From: an uncultured Prevotellaceae bacterium
Lineage (GTDB): Bacteria; Bacteroidota; Bacteroidia; Bacteroidales; Bacteroidaceae
Assembly: GCA_900319385.1 (NCBI GenBank)
Contig: ONOG01000022.1
Coordinates: 1 to 64,000 of the forward strand
DNA length: 64,000 nt
Direction of reading: 5' to 3'
In this document: positions 2,840 through 14,006 of the stretch, one piece after another
Position numbering within the stretch: the stretch's first letter is position 1
Layout of the letters: the number at the start of each line of letters is the position of its first letter
Program-made: the position numbers and the translations under genes
The notes under the pieces: model-generated
The model's database searches: none
The model's input: only the letters and a program-made list of their open reading frames with translations
What the model was told of the DNA's origin: nothing

Positions 2840-4078
2840 ATGAAAAAGACGCTGCTTTTACTTTCGCTGCTACCTTTCACCCTCCATGCCCAGCAGAGCG
2901 GAGTGTTTGTCAACAACCTGAAGAGTCTGCGGGTGTTGGTGAACGACGAGTGGGACAGCGAACCTGTGATGCTGCTGGGCAGCGGGCAATATGTCGATAT
3001 CCTGTTCGACGACATGCAGCACGCCTACGTGCGACGCACCTACACCATCACCCACTGCAATGCCGACTGGACGCAATCGGAACTGCTGGAGAGCGAGTAT
3101 ATGGACGGATTCAACGGGCAACCCATCGACGGCTATGAGCCTTCGCTCTCGACGTCGTCCATCTACAACCACTATTCGCTGCGCATTCCCAACGAAGACG
3201 TGCGGCTGAAGGTGACGGGCAACTACCGCGTCGATATCTTTGAGGATGGCGACCCCGAACCTGTGGCCACCGCCTGCTTCTCGGTGATGCAGCAACGTGT
3301 GGGCATCGACATCAGCGTGAGCAGCAACACCGACATCGACACGTACAGGTCACATCAACAGGTGTCGTTCAACGTCAACTACTCCACCTATACGGTCAAT
3401 CACCCTGAGACCGAGCTCCTGCCCGTCGTCGTGCAGAACCGCCGGTGGGACAATCATGTGGCAGGCCTACGCCCGACCTATCTGCAAGTCAACACGCTCA
3501 TCTTCAACCACAACCGCAACCTCATCTTCCCTGCCGGCAACGAATATCGCCGCATGGAGATTCTCGACGAATATGTGCCGACGATGCGTGTGGAGAGCGT
3601 TCAGTTTGAGGACCCTTCGTACCATGCTTACATCATGACTGACGAGCAGCGTACCAACTACATCTACGACCAGGACCAAGACGGCCGCTACGTGGTGCGC
3701 AACGGCGACAACGTGGACAACGAGACGGAGAGCGAATACGTCATCACCCACTTCCGCCTCGAAATGCCTCAGCTCAGCGGTGGCGAACTCTACCTGCATG
3801 GCGACCTGACGAATGGACGATTTGACGAACCTTATCGCATGGAGTACAACCTGATGGAACACGCCTACGAGCTGGCGATTCCGCTCAAGCAAGGCTCGTA
3901 TAACTATCAGTACCTGTTTGTGCCCGAAGGCGAGGCGGTGGGTTCGACGGCTGAGAGTGAAGGCGATTTCTACCAGACGGAGAACGAATACTGTGTCTAT
4001 GTCTATCACCGGCCCTTCGGCGAGCGATACGACCACCTCGTCGGATTCAACAAGATTAAATATATGGGAAACAGGTAA
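2840..4078 (+). CDS. DUF5103 protein, type IX secretion plug-like
   Basis: A 412-residue exported protein with a signal peptide (MKKTLLLLSLLPFTLHAQ, cleavage after about residue 18). Sequence features such as TYTITHCNADWTQSEL, the YEPS...YNHYSL segment, GNYRV and the C-terminal GSYNYQYLFV segment fit DUF5103. Members of this family have been linked to the plug that closes the SprA translocon of the type IX secretion system, so a periplasmic or outer-membrane role in secretion is likely. That fits the T9SS-like C-terminal tails on proteins elsewhere in the window. It starts 5 bp after uxaC, although no shared function is evident. Confidence 0.8.
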   Translation: MKKTLLLLSLLPFTLHAQQSGVFVNNLKSLRVLVNDEWDSEPVMLLGSGQYVDILFDDMQHAYVRRTYTITHCNADWTQSELLESEYMDGFNGQPIDGYEPSLSTSSIYNHYSLRIPNEDVRLKVTGNYRVDIFEDGDPEPVATACFSVMQQRVGIDISVSSNTDIDTYRSHQQVSFNVNYSTYTVNHPETELLPVVVQNRRWDNHVAGLRPTYLQVNTLIFNHNRNLIFPAGNEYRRMEILDEYVPTMRVESVQFEDPSYHAYIMTDEQRTNYIYDQDQDGRYVVRNGDNVDNETESEYVITHFRLEMPQLSGGELYLHGDLTNGRFDEPYRMEYNLMEHAYELAIPLKQGSYNYQYLFVPEGEAVGSTAESEGDFYQTENEYCVYVYHRPFGERYDHLVGFNKIKYMGNR

Positions 4079-4087
4079 TAGCTATTA

Positions 4088-4181
4088 AAAAATAATAATT
4101 AAAAATTAATAATTAATAATTAAAAATTGGGAGCGCGGATGTACCCGTCAGTAACGAATGCGGGCGAGACGCCCGCGCTCC
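4088..4181. repeat. AT-rich short repeat plus GC-rich hairpin
   Basis: The gap between two genes holds repeated TTAAAAATTAATAATT-type sequence (4088-4128), a motif seen again at 18186-18233. A REP-like nested hairpin follows: GGAGCGCG (4130-4137) pairs with CGCGCTCC (4174-4181), and GCGGGCG/CGCCCGC (4160-4176) lies inside. It could act as a terminator or mRNA stabiliser. Confidence 0.6.
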
Positions 4182-4204
4182 GACCCAAATACACAAAAAC
4201 TTAC

Positions 4205-7078
4205 ATGAAAAAGTTTCTTTTTCTCTTCGTCGGAATATGGTCAATGCTCAGTGCTCAATGGTCGGTGCTCTATGCTCAGGACCTGAAGGCCGTGTTCAAT
4301 GACTATCTGAACAGTTATTCGCGTCCCGATGCCAACATCAAGCCGCGTTCCAATGTCAAAAGCCTCAGCGTGGATGACGCTGCACAGACCATTCGACTGG
4401 AATGTGAAGGCGGCTTCGAGGACCAATTTTTCACCGAAGCCGATGTCAATCGCATCTACAACGACTTCCGCAGTCTGCTGCCTGCCAGCTACAAGAGCTA
4501 TCAACTCAGCATCGTGACCGACCGTCGCGACATCCGCGACCTCGTGCCCAACGCCCTGCGCAGCGGACAGAAGGACCCTTCGCGACAGTGGAAGCAGACC
4601 TACAACGGTGCTCCCTGGGTGAAGAACACTTCGCGCCCCTATACGGCTGAGAACGGACTGGAAGGCACACACATATCCCTCTGGCAGAGCCACGGTCGCT
4701 ATTTCGACAAGAAGTCCGGCGAATGGAAATGGATGCGTCCCCCACTCTTCTGCACCCGTGAGGACCTCTTCTCGCAGACATTCGTCCTGCCCTACATTCT
4801 TCCGATGCTCGAAAATGCCGGTGCCGTGGTCTATACCCCACGCGAACGCGACTGGCAGCACAACGAAGTGACGGTCGATAACGACCAACCGACCAACGGC
4901 GGCATGTATATGGAAGCCGCGGCGATGAAGCATGCCCGACACAAATGGAAGATGGATTCGCAGGCTGGATTTGCGCTCCGCAAATGGCAGTATGGTCGTT
5001 CGGAAAATCCGTTCACCGCTGGCACCGCCCGCATGATCGAGACGGTCAATTCCGACAAGCACGCCTCGACCGCCAACTGGATTCCCAACATTCCGCACGC
5101 CGGCCGCTATGCGGTCTATGTCAGCTATCAGTCGCACCCCAACTCGGTCGATGATGCCCACTACATCGTCTATCACCGTGGCGGACAGACCGACTTCGCG
5201 GTCAACCAGCGCATGGGTGGCGGCACGTGGGTCTATCTCGGCACGTTCGATTTCGAGAAAGGTCAGCGTGAGGACGGCATGGTGCTGCTGACCAACGAAA
5301 GTCAGCACAAGGGTGTCGTCTCGGCCGATGCCGTGCGTTTCGGCGGTGGCATGGGTAACATCATCCGCAATACGGAATTCGACACCATCGGCTCTCGCAG
5401 CCAACTGCCCCGCTGGGCAGAGGCAGCCCGCTACAGTGCTCAATGGGCTGGAATGCCCGACTCAGTATATGACTGTTTCGAGGGCGAAGACGACTACAAG
5501 AGCGATATACAGGCACGTCCACGCAGCTCTAACTATTTGGCGGGTGGCAGTGTCTATGAACCCAACCAGCCTGGTGTCGGTGTGCCCATCGAACTGCAAA
5601 TGGCCTTCCATACCGATGCCGGCGTGCGTCGCGACGACAGCTTCATCGGTTCACTCTCCATCTGCACCACCAACGAGGCGGACGGACGCACCGATGCCGG
5701 CCTCGACCGCTACGTCAGTCGCGACTTGGCTCAGATGCTGCTCGGCAACCTATACAAAGACCTGCGGGGGTACAACTGGATTGTCCGTTCCGTGTGGGAC
5801 CGCAACTACGGCGAAACCCGTGTGCCGCAGCTGCCTGGCATCATTCTCGAGATGCTGTCGCACCAAAACTTTGCCGACATGCGCCTCGGCTACAACCCGA
5901 AGTTCAAGTTCGACTTCGGACGTTCCGTCTATAAGACCGTTGTCAAATATGTGGCTTCGATGCACCAGCGTCCCTACGTCATCCAACCGCTGCCCGTCAC
6001 CGACTTCGCCATCACGCTCGATGAGCAGGGCAGCAGCGCACGCCTCACATGGAAAGCACAGGACGACCCACTCGAACCGACGGCTCGACCTACACATTAT
6101 ATAATATATACACGCGAGGGTGAAGGCGGCTTCGACAACGGAACGATGGTCAGCAGCACCAACGCCTCGATTCCCCTGCAGAAGGACCGCATGTACTCCT
6201 TCCGCATCTGTGCCGTCAACAAAGGCGGACAGAGCTTCCCCAGCGAGACCCTCACAGCCTGCATCGCCTCGAAAAACGAAGGCACCGTGCTCATCGTCAA
6301 TGCCTTCGACCGCCTGTCGGGTCCTGCCGAAGTGAACACCACCACCATGCAAGGCTTCGACCTCGACGCCGATCCTGGCGTTCCCTACGGAGCCTTCGCC
6401 GGCTATTGCGGACGACAGACGGGCTGGAGCAAGTCGAAAATCGGTATCGAGACCGAAGGCGGACTGGGCTATAGCGGCGACGAACTCTGTGGACAGGTCA
6501 TCATGGGCAACACCTTCGACTATCCCTACCTGCATGGAGCCGGACTCCTGCTGGACGGCAAACACTCCTTCGCCTCGACCAGCCTCTCTGCCTTCCTGCG
6601 CAATACCGACACCGCCCTGCGCGACATCCGTATGCTGGACGTCATCTGCGGCGTGCAGCTCGACTTCAATCCGCAGCTCGGTAAGGCTATCCAGCAGTTT
6701 GCCGACCGCGGCGGACGTGTCCTCGTCAGCGGTGCCAACCTCTTCAAGACGAATGGGATGCCGAGCCGCGTGCTTCATGCCGCCCAGGCCGGACGCCTCG
6801 ACAGCAAGACCATCGACCACGTAGAAGGCAGCGGACTCAAGTTCGACATCTACCGCGAGATGAACAGCGAGAGCTATGCCATCCCCCTGCCCGAGACACT
6901 CAGCCCGCTCGACGGTGCCTTTGCCATGCTGAAATATGCCAACGACCAGCCTGCCGCCATCGCCTACGACGGCCAGGGCTACAAAGTCATCACCCTCGGC
7001 TTCCCGCTCGAAGGCATCAAGGAAGCACGTGAGCGCAACCGCCTCATGAGTGCCATCGCCAACTTCCTGTGCAAATGA
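4205..7078 (+). CDS. Secreted golvesin-domain protein with amidase-like region and Fn3
   Basis: I place the start at the ATG at 4205, which gives 957 residues and a clean signal peptide (MKKFLFLFVGIWSML...YAQ); an upstream in-frame start would put the signal inside the protein and lies in the repeat. The middle part (NIPHAGRYAVYVSY...DAHYIVYHRGGQTDF) fits a golvesin C-terminal-like domain. The segment DGRTDAGLDRYVSRDLAQML, continuing to LPGIILEMLSHQN, resembles N-acetylmuramoyl-L-alanine amidase, with Glu and His candidates for zinc binding. An Fn3-like domain follows (about residues 640-720). Such proteins are often labelled xanthan lyase; a cell-wall or polysaccharide role is likely but unproven. 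Its stop overlaps the start of ygiQ (ATGA). Confidence 0.75.
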   Translation: MKKFLFLFVGIWSMLSAQWSVLYAQDLKAVFNDYLNSYSRPDANIKPRSNVKSLSVDDAAQTIRLECEGGFEDQFFTEADVNRIYNDFRSLLPASYKSYQLSIVTDRRDIRDLVPNALRSGQKDPSRQWKQTYNGAPWVKNTSRPYTAENGLEGTHISLWQSHGRYFDKKSGEWKWMRPPLFCTREDLFSQTFVLPYILPMLENAGAVVYTPRERDWQHNEVTVDNDQPTNGGMYMEAAAMKHARHKWKMDSQAGFALRKWQYGRSENPFTAGTARMIETVNSDKHASTANWIPNIPHAGRYAVYVSYQSHPNSVDDAHYIVYHRGGQTDFAVNQRMGGGTWVYLGTFDFEKGQREDGMVLLTNESQHKGVVSADAVRFGGGMGNIIRNTEFDTIGSRSQLPRWAEAARYSAQWAGMPDSVYDCFEGEDDYKSDIQARPRSSNYLAGGSVYEPNQPGVGVPIELQMAFHTDAGVRRDDSFIGSLSICTTNEADGRTDAGLDRYVSRDLAQMLLGNLYKDLRGYNWIVRSVWDRNYGETRVPQLPGIILEMLSHQNFADMRLGYNPKFKFDFGRSVYKTVVKYVASMHQRPYVIQPLPVTDFAITLDEQGSSARLTWKAQDDPLEPTARPTHYIIYTREGEGGFDNGTMVSSTNASIPLQKDRMYSFRICAVNKGGQSFPSETLTACIASKNEGTVLIVNAFDRLSGPAEVNTTTMQGFDLDADPGVPYGAFAGYCGRQTGWSKSKIGIETEGGLGYSGDELCGQVIMGNTFDYPYLHGAGLLLDGKHSFASTSLSAFLRNTDTALRDIRMLDVICGVQLDFNPQLGKAIQQFADRGGRVLVSGANLFKTNGMPSRVLHAAQAGRLDSKTIDHVEGSGLKFDIYREMNSESYAIPLPETLSPLDGAFAMLKYANDQPAAIAYDGQGYKVITLGFPLEGIKEARERNRLMSAIANFLCK

Positions 7079-8922
7079 ACTCCAAGGAATACCGTCTGAC
7101 CGACTTCCTGCCCACCACGAAAAAAGAATGTGAATTGCGTGGTTGGGATGAGCTCGACGTCATCCTGTTCAGTGGCGATGCCTACGTCGATCACCCCTCA
7201 TTTGCCGCAGCCGTCATCGGTCGTCTGCTCGAAAGCGAGGGATTGCGCGTGGCCATCGTGCCGCAACCCGACTGGCACGGCGACTACCGCGACTTCAAGA
7301 AGTTGGGACGCCCCCGACTCTTTTTCGGCATCGCGCCTGGAGCCATGGACTCGATGGTCAACAAATACACCGCTGCCCGCCGTCTGCGCAGCGAGGATGC
7401 CTATTCGCCCGACGGACGCCACGACCTGCGGCCCGAGATGCCCACCATCGTCTATACACGCATTCTCAAGCAGCTCTACCCCGACGTGCCCGTCGTCATC
7501 GGTGGCATCGAAGCCTCCCTTCGCCGCCTTACCCACTACGACTATTGGCGCGATGAACTTCGTCCCTCCATCCTCGTCGATAGCGGGGCCGACCTCCTCA
7601 TCTATGGCATGGGCGAGAAACCCATCCTCGAGCTTGTTAGACATATCGAAAATGGACAAGGCTGGCATAACATACCCCAGACAGCCATGCTCTTTCCCGC
7701 CTCAGAGTTTTCCCCCTCTCAATCTGAAGAGGGATTAGGAGGTGAGCCTCTCATCCTTCACAGCCACGAAGCCTGCCTTGAGGACAAACGCAAGCAAGCC
7801 GAGAACTTCCGCCACATCGAAGAAGAATCCAACAAATACCACGCACGCCGCATCCTCCAGCAGGTAGCCGACCATTGGGTGGTCGTCAACCCACCCTACC
7901 AGCCCCTCACGCAGGGCGAGCTCGACCGCTCCTTCGACCTCCCCTACACCCGTCTGCCCCACCCCAAGTACCGAGGCAAACGCATCCCCGCCTACGAGAT
8001 GATCAAGTTCTCGGTCTGTCTCCACCGTGGCTGCTTCGGCGGTTGTGCCTTCTGCACCATCTCCGCCCACCAAGGCAAGTTCATCACCAGCCGATCGAAG
8101 GAAAGCATCCTGCGCGAAGTCGAAGCCATCACCCGTATGCCCGACTTCAAAGGCTACCTCAGCGACCTCGGCGGACCCTCGGCCAACATGTACGGCATGA
8201 GGGGCAAGGACCTCGACCGCTGCCAACGCTGCGCACGTCCCTCCTGCATCCATCCCAAGGTGTGCCCCAACCTCAACACCGACCACTCTGCCCTGCTCGA
8301 CATCTACCGCTCCGTTGACCACCTGCCAGGCATCAAAAAGAGCTTCATTGGCAGCGGTGTGCGCTACGACCTCCTGCTGCACGACACCGGCGATGCCGAT
8401 ATCAACCGTGTCAACACCGAATATACCCGCGAACTCATCACACGTCATGTCAGCGGACGACTCAAAGTCGCTCCCGAACATACCTCCGACCGCGTGCTCC
8501 AGATGATGCGCAAACCCTCCTTCCAACTCTTCTACGACTTCAAACGCATCTTCGACCACATCAACCGCGAGGAACATCTCAACCAACAGCTCATCCCCTA
8601 CTTCATCTCCTCCCACCCAGGCTGTACAGCCGAGGACATGGCAGAACTCGCTGTCATCACCCGACGTCTCAACTTCCAACTCGAGCAGGTGCAGGACTTC
8701 ACCCCCACACCCATGACTGTCGCCACCGAAGCCTGGTACACGGGTCTGCACCCCTACACCCTCCAGCCCGTCTATTCCGCCCATTCGCCCCGTGAAAAGC
8801 AAGCCCAGCGCCAGTTCTTCTTCTGGTACAAACCCCAGGAGCGTCAAGCCCTCATCCGCGAACTCCGCCGCATGGGACGCCCCGACCTCATCCAGGCACT
8901 GTTTGGAGACCGTACCCATTGA
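7075..8922 (+). CDS. YgiQ-family radical SAM protein
   Basis: A 615-residue cytoplasmic protein. Its radical SAM iron-sulfur motif CxxxCxxC is in CLHRGCFGGCAFC, preceded by the family N-terminal region (DFLPTTKKEC, the VGGIEASLRRL region, HYDYW) and followed by DLGGPSANMYGM and a cysteine-rich CQRCARPSCIHPKVC segment. The reaction catalysed by YgiQ proteins is not settled. I chose the ATG at 7075, which overlaps the stop of the preceding gene, over a GTG two codons earlier. Residues about 214-225 (nt 7713-7745, reading SPSQSEEGLGG) are encoded by a CCCCTCT...AGAGGG hairpin repeat like those between genes here, so a repeat appears to have inserted in frame. Confidence 0.93.
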   Translation: MNSKEYRLTDFLPTTKKECELRGWDELDVILFSGDAYVDHPSFAAAVIGRLLESEGLRVAIVPQPDWHGDYRDFKKLGRPRLFFGIAPGAMDSMVNKYTAARRLRSEDAYSPDGRHDLRPEMPTIVYTRILKQLYPDVPVVIGGIEASLRRLTHYDYWRDELRPSILVDSGADLLIYGMGEKPILELVRHIENGQGWHNIPQTAMLFPASEFSPSQSEEGLGGEPLILHSHEACLEDKRKQAENFRHIEEESNKYHARRILQQVADHWVVVNPPYQPLTQGELDRSFDLPYTRLPHPKYRGKRIPAYEMIKFSVCLHRGCFGGCAFCTISAHQGKFITSRSKESILREVEAITRMPDFKGYLSDLGGPSANMYGMRGKDLDRCQRCARPSCIHPKVCPNLNTDHSALLDIYRSVDHLPGIKKSFIGSGVRYDLLLHDTGDADINRVNTEYTRELITRHVSGRLKVAPEHTSDRVLQMMRKPSFQLFYDFKRIFDHINREEHLNQQLIPYFISSHPGCTAEDMAELAVITRRLNFQLEQVQDFTPTPMTVATEAWYTGLHPYTLQPVYSAHSPREKQAQRQFFFWYKPQERQALIRELRRMGRPDLIQALFGDRTH

Positions 8923-9085: not shown

Positions 9086-9093
9086 TATATTTG
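9086..9093 (+). promoter_or_regulatory. -7 promoter element (TATATTTG)
   Basis: A TAnnTTTG match 31 bp upstream of the ATPase ATG at 9124; it argues against the alternative TTG start at 9091, which would overlap the promoter. Confidence 0.6.
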
Positions 9094-9123
9094 CATCCAA
9101 ATCACATCAGAGGAAAGCTAAAT

Positions 9124-10251
9124 ATGATTCACCGCGAACTGAAATCCAGACTTGAAGAAAAAATGTTCAAGGGCAAAGCCATCATTCTTATGGGGGCAAG
9201 ACAGGTGGGTAAGACGACTCTTTGCAACGAAATACTCAAGCCAAGAGCCGAGAAAGTATTGAAACTCAATTTTGACGAACCCGACATTCGTCAACAATTG
9301 GAGAATCCTACTATGGAAGACCTGAAACGCATCATTGCCGACAACAAGATAATTGTAATGGACGAAGCCCAGCGAGCCACGAACATAGGCTTGACACTAA
9401 AGCGCATTCAGGACAATTTCAAAGAAATTCAACTTTTGGTAACTGGATCTTCTTCACTGAATCTGCGTACTAAAATCAATGAGCCTCTGACAGGACGTAA
9501 ATGGGAATACACGCTCTACCCCATCTCCACGTCCGAACTTATGCACACAGAAGGCCTCTTGCCTACACAGCGTTCACTTGAAAACAGATTGATTTATGGG
9601 TCGTATCCTGATGTCCTCAACTATACAACTGAAGCCAAGGAGACACTTATGAACCTGGCAGACAGTTATCTATATAAAGATTTGTTGGAAATCGACCACA
9701 TCCGAAAGTCTTCCATGATAGAAAAACTGCTGGTTGCCCTCGCCTTGCAAGTGGGCAGTGAAATATCATACAACGAAATCGGACAGACAGTCGGTTCGGA
9801 CAGCAAAACCGTCGAAAAATATATCGACCTGCTTGAAAAAAGTTATATCATCTTCAGGCTTTCAGCGCTCAGTCGCAATCTTCGCAACGAACTGAAGAAA
9901 AGCAAAAAGATTTATTTCTATGACAATGGCATACGCAATGCCATCCTTCAGAACTTCACACCGTTAGCATTGAGAAATGATACTGGAGCCTTGTGGGAGA
10001 ACTTCTTTATCAGTGAACGCATCAAGCACAACCACTACACAGGCCATTATGCCAATTCCTATTTTTGGAGAACCAAGACGCAACAAGAAATCGACTACAT
10101 CGAAGAATGCGACGGAACAATGACAGCCTTCGAAATGAAATGGAATCCAAGAAAAGGCGGCATATCATTTCCCAAAGCATTCATGGAAGCATATCCCGTC
10201 AAAGAATCTGTCATCATCACTCCAGATAATTATCTGGACTATCTGCAATAA
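9124..10251 (+). CDS. AAA_14 / DUF4143 ATP-binding protein
   Basis: A 375-residue ATPase with an N-terminal AAA_14 domain: Walker A GARQVGKTTL (about residues 23-32), Walker B-like KIIVMDEAQ, and sensor segment LLVTGSSSL. A C-terminal DUF4143 domain follows, with a winged-helix-like stretch (the SEISYNEIGQTVG segment, then KTVEKYIDLL) and a nuclease-like end (FWRTKTQQEIDYIEE, then AFEMKW). These proteins are abundant and mobile in Bacteroidetes; their function is not established, though a defence or DNA-related role has been suggested. The ATG at 9124 has GAGGAAAG just upstream. Base composition is lower in GC than in ygiQ. Confidence 0.9.
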   Translation: MIHRELKSRLEEKMFKGKAIILMGARQVGKTTLCNEILKPRAEKVLKLNFDEPDIRQQLENPTMEDLKRIIADNKIIVMDEAQRATNIGLTLKRIQDNFKEIQLLVTGSSSLNLRTKINEPLTGRKWEYTLYPISTSELMHTEGLLPTQRSLENRLIYGSYPDVLNYTTEAKETLMNLADSYLYKDLLEIDHIRKSSMIEKLLVALALQVGSEISYNEIGQTVGSDSKTVEKYIDLLEKSYIIFRLSALSRNLRNELKKSKKIYFYDNGIRNAILQNFTPLALRNDTGALWENFFISERIKHNHYTGHYANSYFWRTKTQQEIDYIEECDGTMTAFEMKWNPRKGGISFPKAFMEAYPVKESVIITPDNYLDYLQ

Positions 10252-11220: not shown

Positions 11221-11403
11221 AGCGAAAAAACGTAAAAAAGTCAGCCATCTGTCATAATATCATTAGCCTTGACACATGGTTACTCCAAATGGAAAGTGCA
11301 CCACAGTACATTAAGCAGCCGTCCACAGTTCGCACCGATGCGGACTGTGGACGGTTCCTTTGCCAACCGTGGACAGTTTTTCACTCTACCTCTCAAGTGT
11401 ACA

Positions 11404-11800
11404 ACTTAGCGCCTGAGTTTGATTTCGGCATCGCTCACCAGTTTCCACACTTCATTCTGGATGAAATCGGAGAGTTCCGTCACGTTCTGTTTGTTTGCAC
11501 CGAAGTTGAGGAGGTTGAGGACAGAGCGTGATGACCGCGCGAAATCGTAGCGCGGTTTGCGACAACGGGAGATTTATCTCCCCAAAGGAGTTCGTCACCC
11601 TGCTCTGCTCCGTCCCCGTTGCCACCACCTTCACCTTGACACTCTCCGTGAAGGGCGACACGAACCTGCCACGCCGCGCCTCCATCATGAAATGCACATC
11701 GTCACACGCAATGTTGCTGAAGTGTGTCTTCGTCTGAAACACATGCTTCACCGCCGTATACACCCTCCAACCTTATCCGCGCATTGTTCGGAGAGAGCAA
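11404..11800 (-). pseudogene. Degraded gene of unknown function
   Basis: On the minus strand, protein-like sequence continues through at least two frame changes. One part in about 11764-11800 reads NNARIRLEG. A central part reads VYTAVKHVFQTKTHF onward to SLPLSQ-like text ending near FRAVITL (about 11763-11530). The last part, in another frame, reads LNLLNFGANKQNV and ends VSDAEIKLRR then stop (about 11525-11404). No single frame covers it. I do not recognise the family. It could be a decayed gene or simply carry sequence errors. Confidence 0.4.
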
Positions 11801-11803
11801 ACA

Positions 11804-11989
11804 CTACTTACCCCAAGGCTCCTTGTGGATACTATATTTCGCTATTTTCTCAGCCAATTGACTAATTATCTTCCAACGCGTCGTCATCCAACTACCACAA
11901 TGCGGACATTTAGGAGGAAGATAAGTTAAAATCACATCACCTTCAGTGAATGTTTTTTTGCACTTTAAGCAATAACAAGTAGAATTCAT
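11804..11989 (-). CDS. Small zinc-ribbon protein
   Basis: A 61-residue protein with two CxxC knuckles (CYCLKCKKTF and KCPHCGSW) spaced as in a rubredoxin-like zinc ribbon, followed by a basic helical tail. The ATG at 11989 is preferred over an upstream TTG. It is the last gene of a probable minus-strand operon with the two coiled-coil proteins and the 413-aa protein upstream. Function unknown; nucleic acid or protein binding through the zinc ribbon is likely. Confidence 0.6.
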   Translation of the reverse strand: MNSTCYCLKCKKTFTEGDVILTYLPPKCPHCGSWMTTRWKIISQLAEKIAKYSIHKEPWGK

Positions 11990-12064
11990 AATATAGATGA
12001 TTACCAATAATTAGCAATCAAGATGCAACCAGATGGTATTCAGTTGTTTATCTTAAAAGATGGA

Positions 12065-12415
12065 TCAAAGACCATCTTCTAACTCATCAATAAGACTATC
12101 TTTTTCCCTATCTATTTCTTTCCATTTTTCACGTTCACGCTCATGTTCTTCATGCATCCTTTGCATTTTAACTTCATCGCGCTCCGCTTGCTCAATTGTG
12201 CCTTGTTTTCTTCCGTCTTTTTTACCTATTTGATAAACATGGCTCGTACCAGGCAAATCCTCAGTAAAAGTTTCTTTTACTGATTCTTCTAGACATTGCC
12301 TGAACGGTTTCCCCGTTTCTTTCTTTTTTTGAAGAGCATCAAATATATGACCTTCTATTAGGCCGCCAGCACCACCTAACAAACCTTTCTTAATCAACAA
12401 ACGCTTTAATCCCAT
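12065..12415 (-). CDS. Glycine-rich/coiled-coil small protein (paralogue B)
   Basis: A 116-residue protein with a short glycine-rich N-terminal segment (KKGLLGGAGGLIEG) and a long charged coiled coil at the C-terminus (MQRMHEEHEREREKWKEIDR). Its C-terminal half is homologous to that of the neighbour at 12426-12761: GKKDG...GTIEQAERDEVKM here corresponds to GKKEGTAEQAARDEKKM there, followed by the same H-HE-R-W heptad pattern. The two arose by duplication but have different N-termini. The gene starts 10 bp after its paralogue. Function unknown; a role as partners of the 413-aa upstream protein is inferred from the operon. Confidence 0.65.
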   Translation of the reverse strand: MGLKRLLIKKGLLGGAGGLIEGHIFDALQKKKETGKPFRQCLEESVKETFTEDLPGTSHVYQIGKKDGRKQGTIEQAERDEVKMQRMHEEHEREREKWKEIDREKDSLIDELEDGL

Positions 12416-12425
12416 AACATGCAAC

Positions 12426-12761
12426 TTATTGATTTTCTACTTCATCCAGTAAATCTTCATACTCTTGTTTTTCTTCATTCCACCGTTTGCGGTCATTCTC
12501 ATGTTGTTGATGCAGGTCGTTCATTTTCTTCTCATCACGAGCAGCTTGTTCTGCTGTTCCTTCTTTTTTTCCTTTATTATGGCCAACAGCTTCACCAACA
12601 GCATATGCTCCGCCAGCCACAGCTACTCCTCCGGCACCTGCAACATACTTTGTACCATGCTTACTAAAATGTTGAGTAATAGCGTTCCACAAAATGGAAC
12701 CACCTTTAGCAAGAGCAATTCCTGCAGACTCCATTAAAGGAAATAAAATTTTATCAATCAT
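12426..12761 (-). CDS. Glycine-zipper/coiled-coil small protein (paralogue A)
   Basis: A 111-residue protein. Residues about 38-60 (YVAGAGGVAVAGGAYAVGEA) are small and hydrophobic with regular glycines, like a glycine zipper that could insert into or lie on a membrane. A GHNKGKKEGTAEQAARDEKKM linker and a coiled coil with HQQHENDRKRW follow. It lies 3 bp after the 413-aa gene and 10 bp before its own paralogue, so all three are almost certainly co-transcribed. No family is recognised. Confidence 0.65.
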   Translation of the reverse strand: MIDKILFPLMESAGIALAKGGSILWNAITQHFSKHGTKYVAGAGGVAVAGGAYAVGEAVGHNKGKKEGTAEQAARDEKKMNDLHQQHENDRKRWNEEKQEYEDLLDEVENQ

Positions 12762-12764
12762 AGA

Positions 12765-14006
12765 CTATATATTATAAATGTTGTTTTTTGATTCAATGAT
12801 TTTATCCCACTCATTGAAGATAAATTCCTCTTTTATTTTTAAAATGTATTTTGTATCTGTAATTAATCTGTAAACCGTAACCAAAAAACCACCTAAATCA
12901 AAGTTCTTTATGGCATTTTCATCACCCATGTAGGCGCGACATGCCGTTTGTACCACATCTGATGAGGTTGCTATCATATTGGAATATAAAATAATCTTTC
13001 TTGTTCTGACATTGTATAATTCCTTGTCAAAATCCTTTTGGGGATTATAAAAGAACTTATGTATCGCTCCAATAATCATATTAATCATGACAGATTGTGC
13101 AGCAGATTTCATTGTTCTTCTGAGAATCTGTGTATCGTATAGATAATCCAAATAGTCATAGCCATCCTTGTATATATCATATGCTTTATCAGAATCCAAT
13201 AAACTGAGAAACGGAACAGGTAAGCCTAATTTTGTATATTTGTCCGAAGTAAGATGAAGTCCCTGCGAAAACAAAGCCGCATATAATCTATGTTTGTCTT
13301 CGCCAATACTTTCGAAAGCATTGGTAAAAACGTTCCAATTCGTAGTCCTTTCTTTCCAACAGAAATTAGACCCCATATCAACCCTATAAGACTCTATATA
13401 AGGTATTCTTATGGATTTTTCTCCAAGTTGATATTCCGGACAAATCGTAATGGTGTCGCTGATAATATTTGCGACACCAAATATCCATCCAAGAACAGGA
13501 TCATGACCTAAAGTCTTTACTCTATGCTGGCCACCATGCATGTTTCGCTCATTAAAATCCTGACCAGAATGTCTTGTTGCGTCGTAAGGAACTTTTATAG
13601 TAAATGCTATTTCTTGCCAAGATCGATAACCTTTTTCACTTTTTTTTGATGCCCAATTCTTGTGCTTCTTCTTATATTCTTCTATTTCTTCTTTTTCCAT
13701 CTCTTTAATGATGTCATCATCATGGTCTAAACGATCTTCATCAAGATATCTTTCCTGAAATTTCGGAAGCATATATATACGCACAAGCTGTAATGCTGTT
13801 GCCAACATCAATATAGATACATCTGTTTTGGATAAAGATGTTCTTTTTTCGAATGTCATATCCAATTTTTCTAAAATGGATGGCGCATTATGTAATACAC
13901 TGATGACACGTTTTTCTTCATTTCGATGTTCGTCAAAGTCTTTCCAAAGAGCCTCAGATTTTGCTCTTATTGCGTCGCGACGTCTTTTAAAATCCTCTTT
14001 ATCCAT
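12765..14006 (-). CDS. Uncharacterised 413-aa protein with HGGxHR...GHDP motif
   Basis: The N-terminal 110 residues are helical, with a predicted coil (KEMEKEEIEEYKKKHKN). The central block contains YDATRHSGQDF, NMHGGQHRVKTLGHDPVLGW and IFGVANIISDT, a His/Asp-rich stretch that looks like the conserved core. The C-terminal third is helical with hydrophobic segments (the SAAQSVMINMIIGAIHKFF region) suggesting membrane contact. I have an impression that similar HGGxHR...GHDPxLG proteins occur widely in bacteria but know no function. The ATG at 14006 is chosen over a TTG five codons upstream. It heads a tight minus-strand operon with two coiled-coil proteins and a zinc-ribbon peptide. No promoter of the TAnnTTTG type is visible upstream. 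Confidence 0.75.
   Translation of the reverse strand: MDKEDFKRRRDAIRAKSEALWKDFDEHRNEEKRVISVLHNAPSILEKLDMTFEKRTSLSKTDVSILMLATALQLVRIYMLPKFQERYLDEDRLDHDDDIIKEMEKEEIEEYKKKHKNWASKKSEKGYRSWQEIAFTIKVPYDATRHSGQDFNERNMHGGQHRVKTLGHDPVLGWIFGVANIISDTITICPEYQLGEKSIRIPYIESYRVDMGSNFCWKERTTNWNVFTNAFESIGEDKHRLYAALFSQGLHLTSDKYTKLGLPVPFLSLLDSDKAYDIYKDGYDYLDYLYDTQILRRTMKSAAQSVMINMIIGAIHKFFYNPQKDFDKELYNVRTRKIILYSNMIATSSDVVQTACRAYMGDENAIKNFDLGGFLVTVYRLITDTKYILKIKEEFIFNEWDKIIESKNNIYNI

Follow-up and report, generated by a model that had tools for sequence, protein, structure and literature searches.

A candidate Bunzi-like module of a divergent BnzB homologue and two small partner proteins in an uncultured Prevotellaceae bacterium

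A short run of closely packed genes in the genome of an uncultured Prevotellaceae bacterium raises the question of which of them belong together, to which known family they can be assigned, and what they might do. The window analysed here is a stretch of 64,000 nucleotides (contig ONOG01000022.1, positions 1 to 64,000) from a 2.78 Mb assembly of 60 contigs (GCA_900319385.1), and the closest relatives of the genes of interest were found in rumen and gut Bacteroidales. An earlier note, made from the sequence alone, had described a four-gene operon, suspected it to be a transferred unit with a possible role in defence or the envelope, and put it forward as an undescribed system. Three of the four genes (A, B, and C; Table 1) are closely packed open reading frames on the minus strand, and the tight spacing reported for them (3 bp from A to B and 10 bp from B to C) was confirmed, as was the conserved-looking core within the 413-aa protein, NMHGGQHRVKTLGHDPVLGW. 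The start of A was placed at the ATG at 14006, which is shared by two relatives, while for C the ATG at 12415 was favoured over the TTG at 12424 based on the homologues in two related loci (L011 and L012). B and C are indeed related to each other (46% identity across the C-terminal 52 residues), and B has a clear glycine zipper, that of C being weaker.

Table 1 Coordinates of the features in the window
Feature	Position	Strand	Description
Gene A	12765..14006	-	413 aa, divergent BnzB-family protein by sequence, candidate effector core
Gene B	12426..12761	-	111-aa glycine-zipper and coiled-coil partner; starts 3 bp after A
Gene C	12065..12415	-	116-aa coiled-coil partner; starts 10 bp after B
Conserved, transferable unit	12043..14006	.	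Delimited by DNA identity to L012 and L011
Zinc-ribbon CxxC/CxxC ORF	11804..12007	-	67 aa; neighbour, judged to lie outside the unit

The gene order A-B-C was found again in L012, from a Bacteroidaceae genome of water buffalo rumen, and in L011, from Prevotella UBA4376. The former aligned with the window at 85.5% DNA identity over positions 12043-14006 only, and the latter at 76% over positions 12084-14006. The surroundings in L012 are unlike those in the window, since there the unit follows a transposase-like gene and is itself followed by element-like genes (labels given by reading the sequences). When compared with L012, the dN/dS values were 0.09 for A, 0.25 for B, and 0.12 for C; all three genes are under purifying selection and are more than chance ORFs. 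Since the DNA homology covers just A, B, and C, the surroundings differ, and dN/dS is low, we consider them a three-gene, transferable, and selected set. The notion of a transferred unit thus held, given that relatives have unrelated surroundings and that a search of 150 genomes found A homologues in only 2, that of the window itself and another with 41% identity, while the four-gene operon was reduced to its three tightly spaced members with conserved order. The zinc-ribbon ORF was rejected as a fourth member because it had no homologue in any of the related loci fetched and because the homology to L012 ends at 12043, before this ORF is reached; the window's genome holds no second copy of it.

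Several features in the vicinity of the unit were also recorded. Related genomes have greA in common with the window and not the region after greA, within the stretch compared. An ATPase-like gene (9091-10251) lies between a YgiQ-like radical-SAM gene and greA, and it is probably an insertion in the window's genome, as the latter two genes are just ~260 bp apart in a related genome (G008, locus L136). A stretch of ~60 bp at 11533-11595, with about seven further copies in the genome at 85-97% identity, holds short inverted repeats (e.g., GGGAGATTTATCTCCC) and looks like a REP-type dispersed element, while a 22-bp inverted repeat with a 4-bp loop at 11313-11360 (CCGTCCACAGTTCGCA) has partial copies elsewhere in the genome. 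In L012, the gene immediately upstream of the related A-B-C unit (L012:265-1287) encodes 340 aa and looks like one for a REP-associated tyrosine transposase.

Searches of Pfam, NCBIfam, and PHROGs with the four window proteins returned no trustworthy family, and a weak match to PHROG 1098 (E = 0.0017), limited to 2 of the 78 members of the A family, was discarded. Against PADLOC, A matched BnzB (PDLC03834) with E = 1.2e-34, residues 105-405 aligning with model positions 200-502 of 504; positions 1-199 of the model are unmatched, so the match is not full-length and leaves out the N-terminal region of BnzB. The same family, and no other in PADLOC, was matched by all 82 aligned A homologues. When a tree was built from the core domain, the 73 sequences of the window's kind grouped together (support 100/100), separately from canonical BnzB and its phage relatives, although the long branches at the root leave its exact position unsure. 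By sequence comparison, A is a divergent BnzB homologue whose large clade is sister to canonical BnzB, and the suggestion of a system with no known relative had to be given up. A genome scan recovered 115 relatives of A, 80 of which were analysed; the loci of A homologues span Bacteroidota, Bacillota, Spirochaetota, and phages, with further relatives in viral contigs, in plasmids of Lactococcus, Limosilactobacillus, and Lachnospira, and in one phage. Most of this sister clade is unannotated, and within it one conserved core is combined with many different partners.

Ten alignment columns are invariant over 78 A homologues (D142, H161, G167, H168, D169, G173, G177, H251, D255, and P265), and the residues D142, H161, H168, D169, H251, and D255 among them suggest a metal site and hence a metal-dependent enzyme. 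AlphaFold2 models of the full protein (pLDDT 89.1, pTM 0.62) and of residues 56-325 (pLDDT 89.8, pTM 0.78), for which four rows from plasmid and phage records were left out of the alignment, consist mostly of helices with a small sheet. Neither model had a meaningful match in the PDB with Foldseek and VIA-align, nor did the full model among viral models with Foldseek; the best VIA-align score (Z 7.0, rmsd 3.8 over 111 residues) was to the long helices of pyocin S5, and a PDB sequence search with the A profile gave weak matches only, among which coiled-coil and designed helical proteins predominated. This lack of a structural match does not prove that the predicted fold is new, but as it resembles nothing solved, the enzymatic activity of A is proposed from residue conservation alone. 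One lead came from PF04307 (YdjM/DUF457, predicted membrane-bound metal-dependent hydrolases), in which conserved residues follow a similar order: an Asp, HRxxTH compared with HRxxT(LG)HD in A, and HxxxDxxTxxG...P. Local alignment, left unforced, placed HLTSDKYTKLGLPV opposite HIFIDVCTSYGTQV and was not significant, profile comparison with hhalign was not significant either (E 0.23 and 0.44), and PF04307 was absent among the Pfam matches listed for 82 A members. Membership of A in PF04307, an idea prompted by the motif order, was therefore rejected, and the resemblance is kept as a suggestive lead only; PF04307 proteins are predicted to be membrane-bound, which A may or may not be.

The association of A homologues with partner genes was examined using five profiles (two for small proteins of the B/C kind, two for glycine-zipper proteins, and one for a large kind). 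Of 95 loci, 86 had a partner of a recognised type, small or large, at most three genes from the A homologue, almost always at position +/-1 or +/-2, and this count is approximate because the set holds at least three near-duplicates and the search was run at E 0.01 with filters off. In two of the nine loci that had no recognised partner the A homologue is cut by the contig end, and in another one (L080), partnerless by profile, a 700-aa neighbour resembles the large kind when inspected by eye. Adjacent genes on the same strand and of at least 95 aa were mostly situated at most 30 bp away (101 of 132). Homologues of B occupy the same place in L011-L014, and homologues of C follow the A homologue in L011, L012, and the Bacillota loci L015, L026, L033, L037, and L038 (30% identity over 122 residues between C and the partner in L033, E = 2e-11). 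A is thus co-inherited with B and C, and the co-occurrence that the earlier note had proposed as a check was observed, the small partners recurring with A homologues.

We take the TerB domain of Bunzi to belong to BnzA. The BnzA model was matched by 19 of the 54 small partners of A homologues (best 7.6e-13), and for two of them checked singly the match was located at positions 296-405 and 299-361 of 544, after the TerB-like part. As 28 of the 54 small partners match LeoBC as well (best 2.8e-6), these matches are not specific to Bunzi. The window's own B and C gave no match to the PADLOC BnzA model, and their tie to BnzA runs via the related partners, with coiled-coil and glycine-rich sequence possibly inflating the similarity. 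Canonical BnzA proteins (L004 and L007) combine the TerB-like part with a glycine zipper and a coiled coil, while B and C, at 111-116 aa, are taken up by glycine-rich and coiled-coil stretches and leave no room for a TerB region. With C matching the Bacillota partners and neither protein matching BnzA directly, the reading as TerB-less analogues of BnzA is supported for the partner family, and B and C may by extension be such analogues too.

In about 20 loci the small genes are replaced by a downstream large partner, mostly of 450-700 aa. Its helical N-terminal segment carries a GxxxGAKPFEEKF-like motif and is followed by a helical middle, which may resemble TerB, and by a variable C-terminus, which can be a right-handed beta-helix, a set of BspA-type leucine-rich repeats, or a dynamin GTPase. 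These variable domains look like recognition modules and may serve as such. On the core-domain tree, the partner type changed 15 times, compared with 37 times when labels were shuffled; partners are inherited with the core, yet they have been swapped repeatedly. A constant A and varying partners would also fit a reversal of roles, with B and C as effectors that form a membrane pore on a trigger and A as a sensor or assembly switch. The glycine-rich hydrophobic segment and coiled coil of B agree with this, as do weak profile resemblances to Rz-like spanins and, for the partners of A homologues, to LeoBC. We nevertheless regard it as unlikely, since the ten invariant positions of A (78 sequences), including the Asp/His cluster, suit an enzyme better than a scaffold, and many partners are large repeat-domain proteins rather than pores.

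The genomic neighbourhood bears on the function of the unit. Genes of BREX, Mokosh, Abi, and CRISPR systems, together with WYL regulators, surround A homologues: among 116 more distant neighbours, for which no matched control set was used, 18 matched WYL regulators, BrxL, AbiLi, MkoA, Cas1, and Cas5 were matched once each, and several PADLOC candidates were matched too. Thirty loci carry a WYL gene. The role in defence that had been considered possible gained ground, both from the homology of A to a defence protein and from the position of its family among other defence genes. On the Lactococcus plasmid pLLI11B (L007), a WYL gene comes first, followed by a coiled-coil gene and a short BnzB homologue. 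Directly after these two come canonical BnzA and a gene called BnzB-like by alignment (3375-8496 for the four), so that both forms can share one cluster.

A compact, mobile, tightly spaced, and sporadically occurring set of genes is also what could be expected from a stabilisation module of the toxin-antitoxin type carried by a mobile element, whose effect on phages would be incidental. The homology of A to BnzB, the recurrent place among defence genes with WYL regulators, and the large size and LRR, beta-helix, or dynamin domains of many partners, which set them apart from antitoxins, make this improbable. Even less credible, and in our view very improbable, is a function in membrane or envelope maintenance unrelated to phages: the glycine-zipper segments and the mainly helical core of A would be compatible with it, whereas the patchy spread (2 of 150 genomes), the defence-gene surroundings, and the presence of A relatives in a phage genome and viral contigs speak against it. 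For the envelope role raised in the earlier note we found nothing beyond a possible membrane association, and the hydrophobicity of A, B, and C is merely borderline for membrane spanning.

Taken together, we consider it probable that A-B-C is a compact Bunzi-like anti-phage module, with A as the effector and B and C as membrane-associated regulators, the roles being assigned in outline. A would be a metal-dependent enzyme acting through its invariant His/Asp cluster, probably at or on the membrane, a step that, taken by itself, we hold only tentatively. The glycine-rich helices of B and C would anchor A to the membrane, and their coiled coils would hold it inactive until a membrane disturbed by infection, or a bound phage product, causes B and C to free or activate it. 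In other members of the clade, larger partners with added variable C-terminal domains would take the place of B and C. As the minimal partners leave little space for a recognition domain, the signal may be supplied by A or by the membrane itself.

With a natural minimal form that has no TerB partner, three small genes would be enough for a direct test of the role of the core protein, for which the invariant His/Asp residues offer concrete targets for mutation. The distribution of partners also suggests that annotation rules that additionally require a BnzA match would miss many members of the clade, and partner swapping around one core may diversify phage recognition. A broader proposal, which is possible but which we would not yet call probable, is that A-type proteins form a wide defence superfamily in which canonical Bunzi is one branch, built around a conserved His/Asp enzyme that has no solved relative and uses interchangeable partners, either minimal glycine-zipper/coiled-coil regulators or large coiled-coil proteins with swappable recognition domains (beta-helix, leucine-rich repeats, dynamin), the window representing the minimal form. 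If true, this form would be evidence that neither TerB nor the recognition domains are needed.

Among known systems, the dynamin-associated Leo (LeoA and LeoBC in PADLOC) resembles the locus through the weak LeoBC matches of about half of the small partners (the 28 mentioned above), which may reflect glycine-rich and coiled-coil composition, and through a partner in Lachnospira eligens that is a dynamin-family GTPase matching LeoA; in contrast, A, B, C, and the zinc-ribbon ORF had no Dynamin_N match. The PADLOC candidate PDC-M09A/B is absent from the window, while 6 of the 54 small partners match PDC-M09A and the large neighbour of one A homologue matches PDC-M09B. Neighbours of A homologues that match PDC-M09B and dynamin-like LeoA, located at L034:1504-3210 and L009:5137-6963, hint at links among Bunzi, Leo, and PDC-M09.

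Bunzi (BnzA and BnzB; PADLOC-DB PDLC03833/PDLC03834) is the closest system. PMC10952713 credits its description to Millman et al. 2022 and lists TerB in Shango and Bunzi, and a 2026 review places Bunzi among the systems of unknown mechanism (PMC12926258). No description of a TerB-less form was found in the literature searched, lactococcal plasmid systems included, which was mostly open-access, so that an earlier description is possible. The locus and Bunzi have in common the C-terminal 300 positions of BnzB, the adjacency of core and partner, and small partners some of which match BnzA after its TerB region. They differ in that the window has two partners of about 115 aa with neither TerB nor a BnzA match instead of one partner, in that these lie downstream of A while the canonical partner lies upstream, and in that A falls in a clade separate from canonical BnzB. 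We read A-B-C as a probable variant of the known Bunzi system, in a TerB-less form with two small partners.
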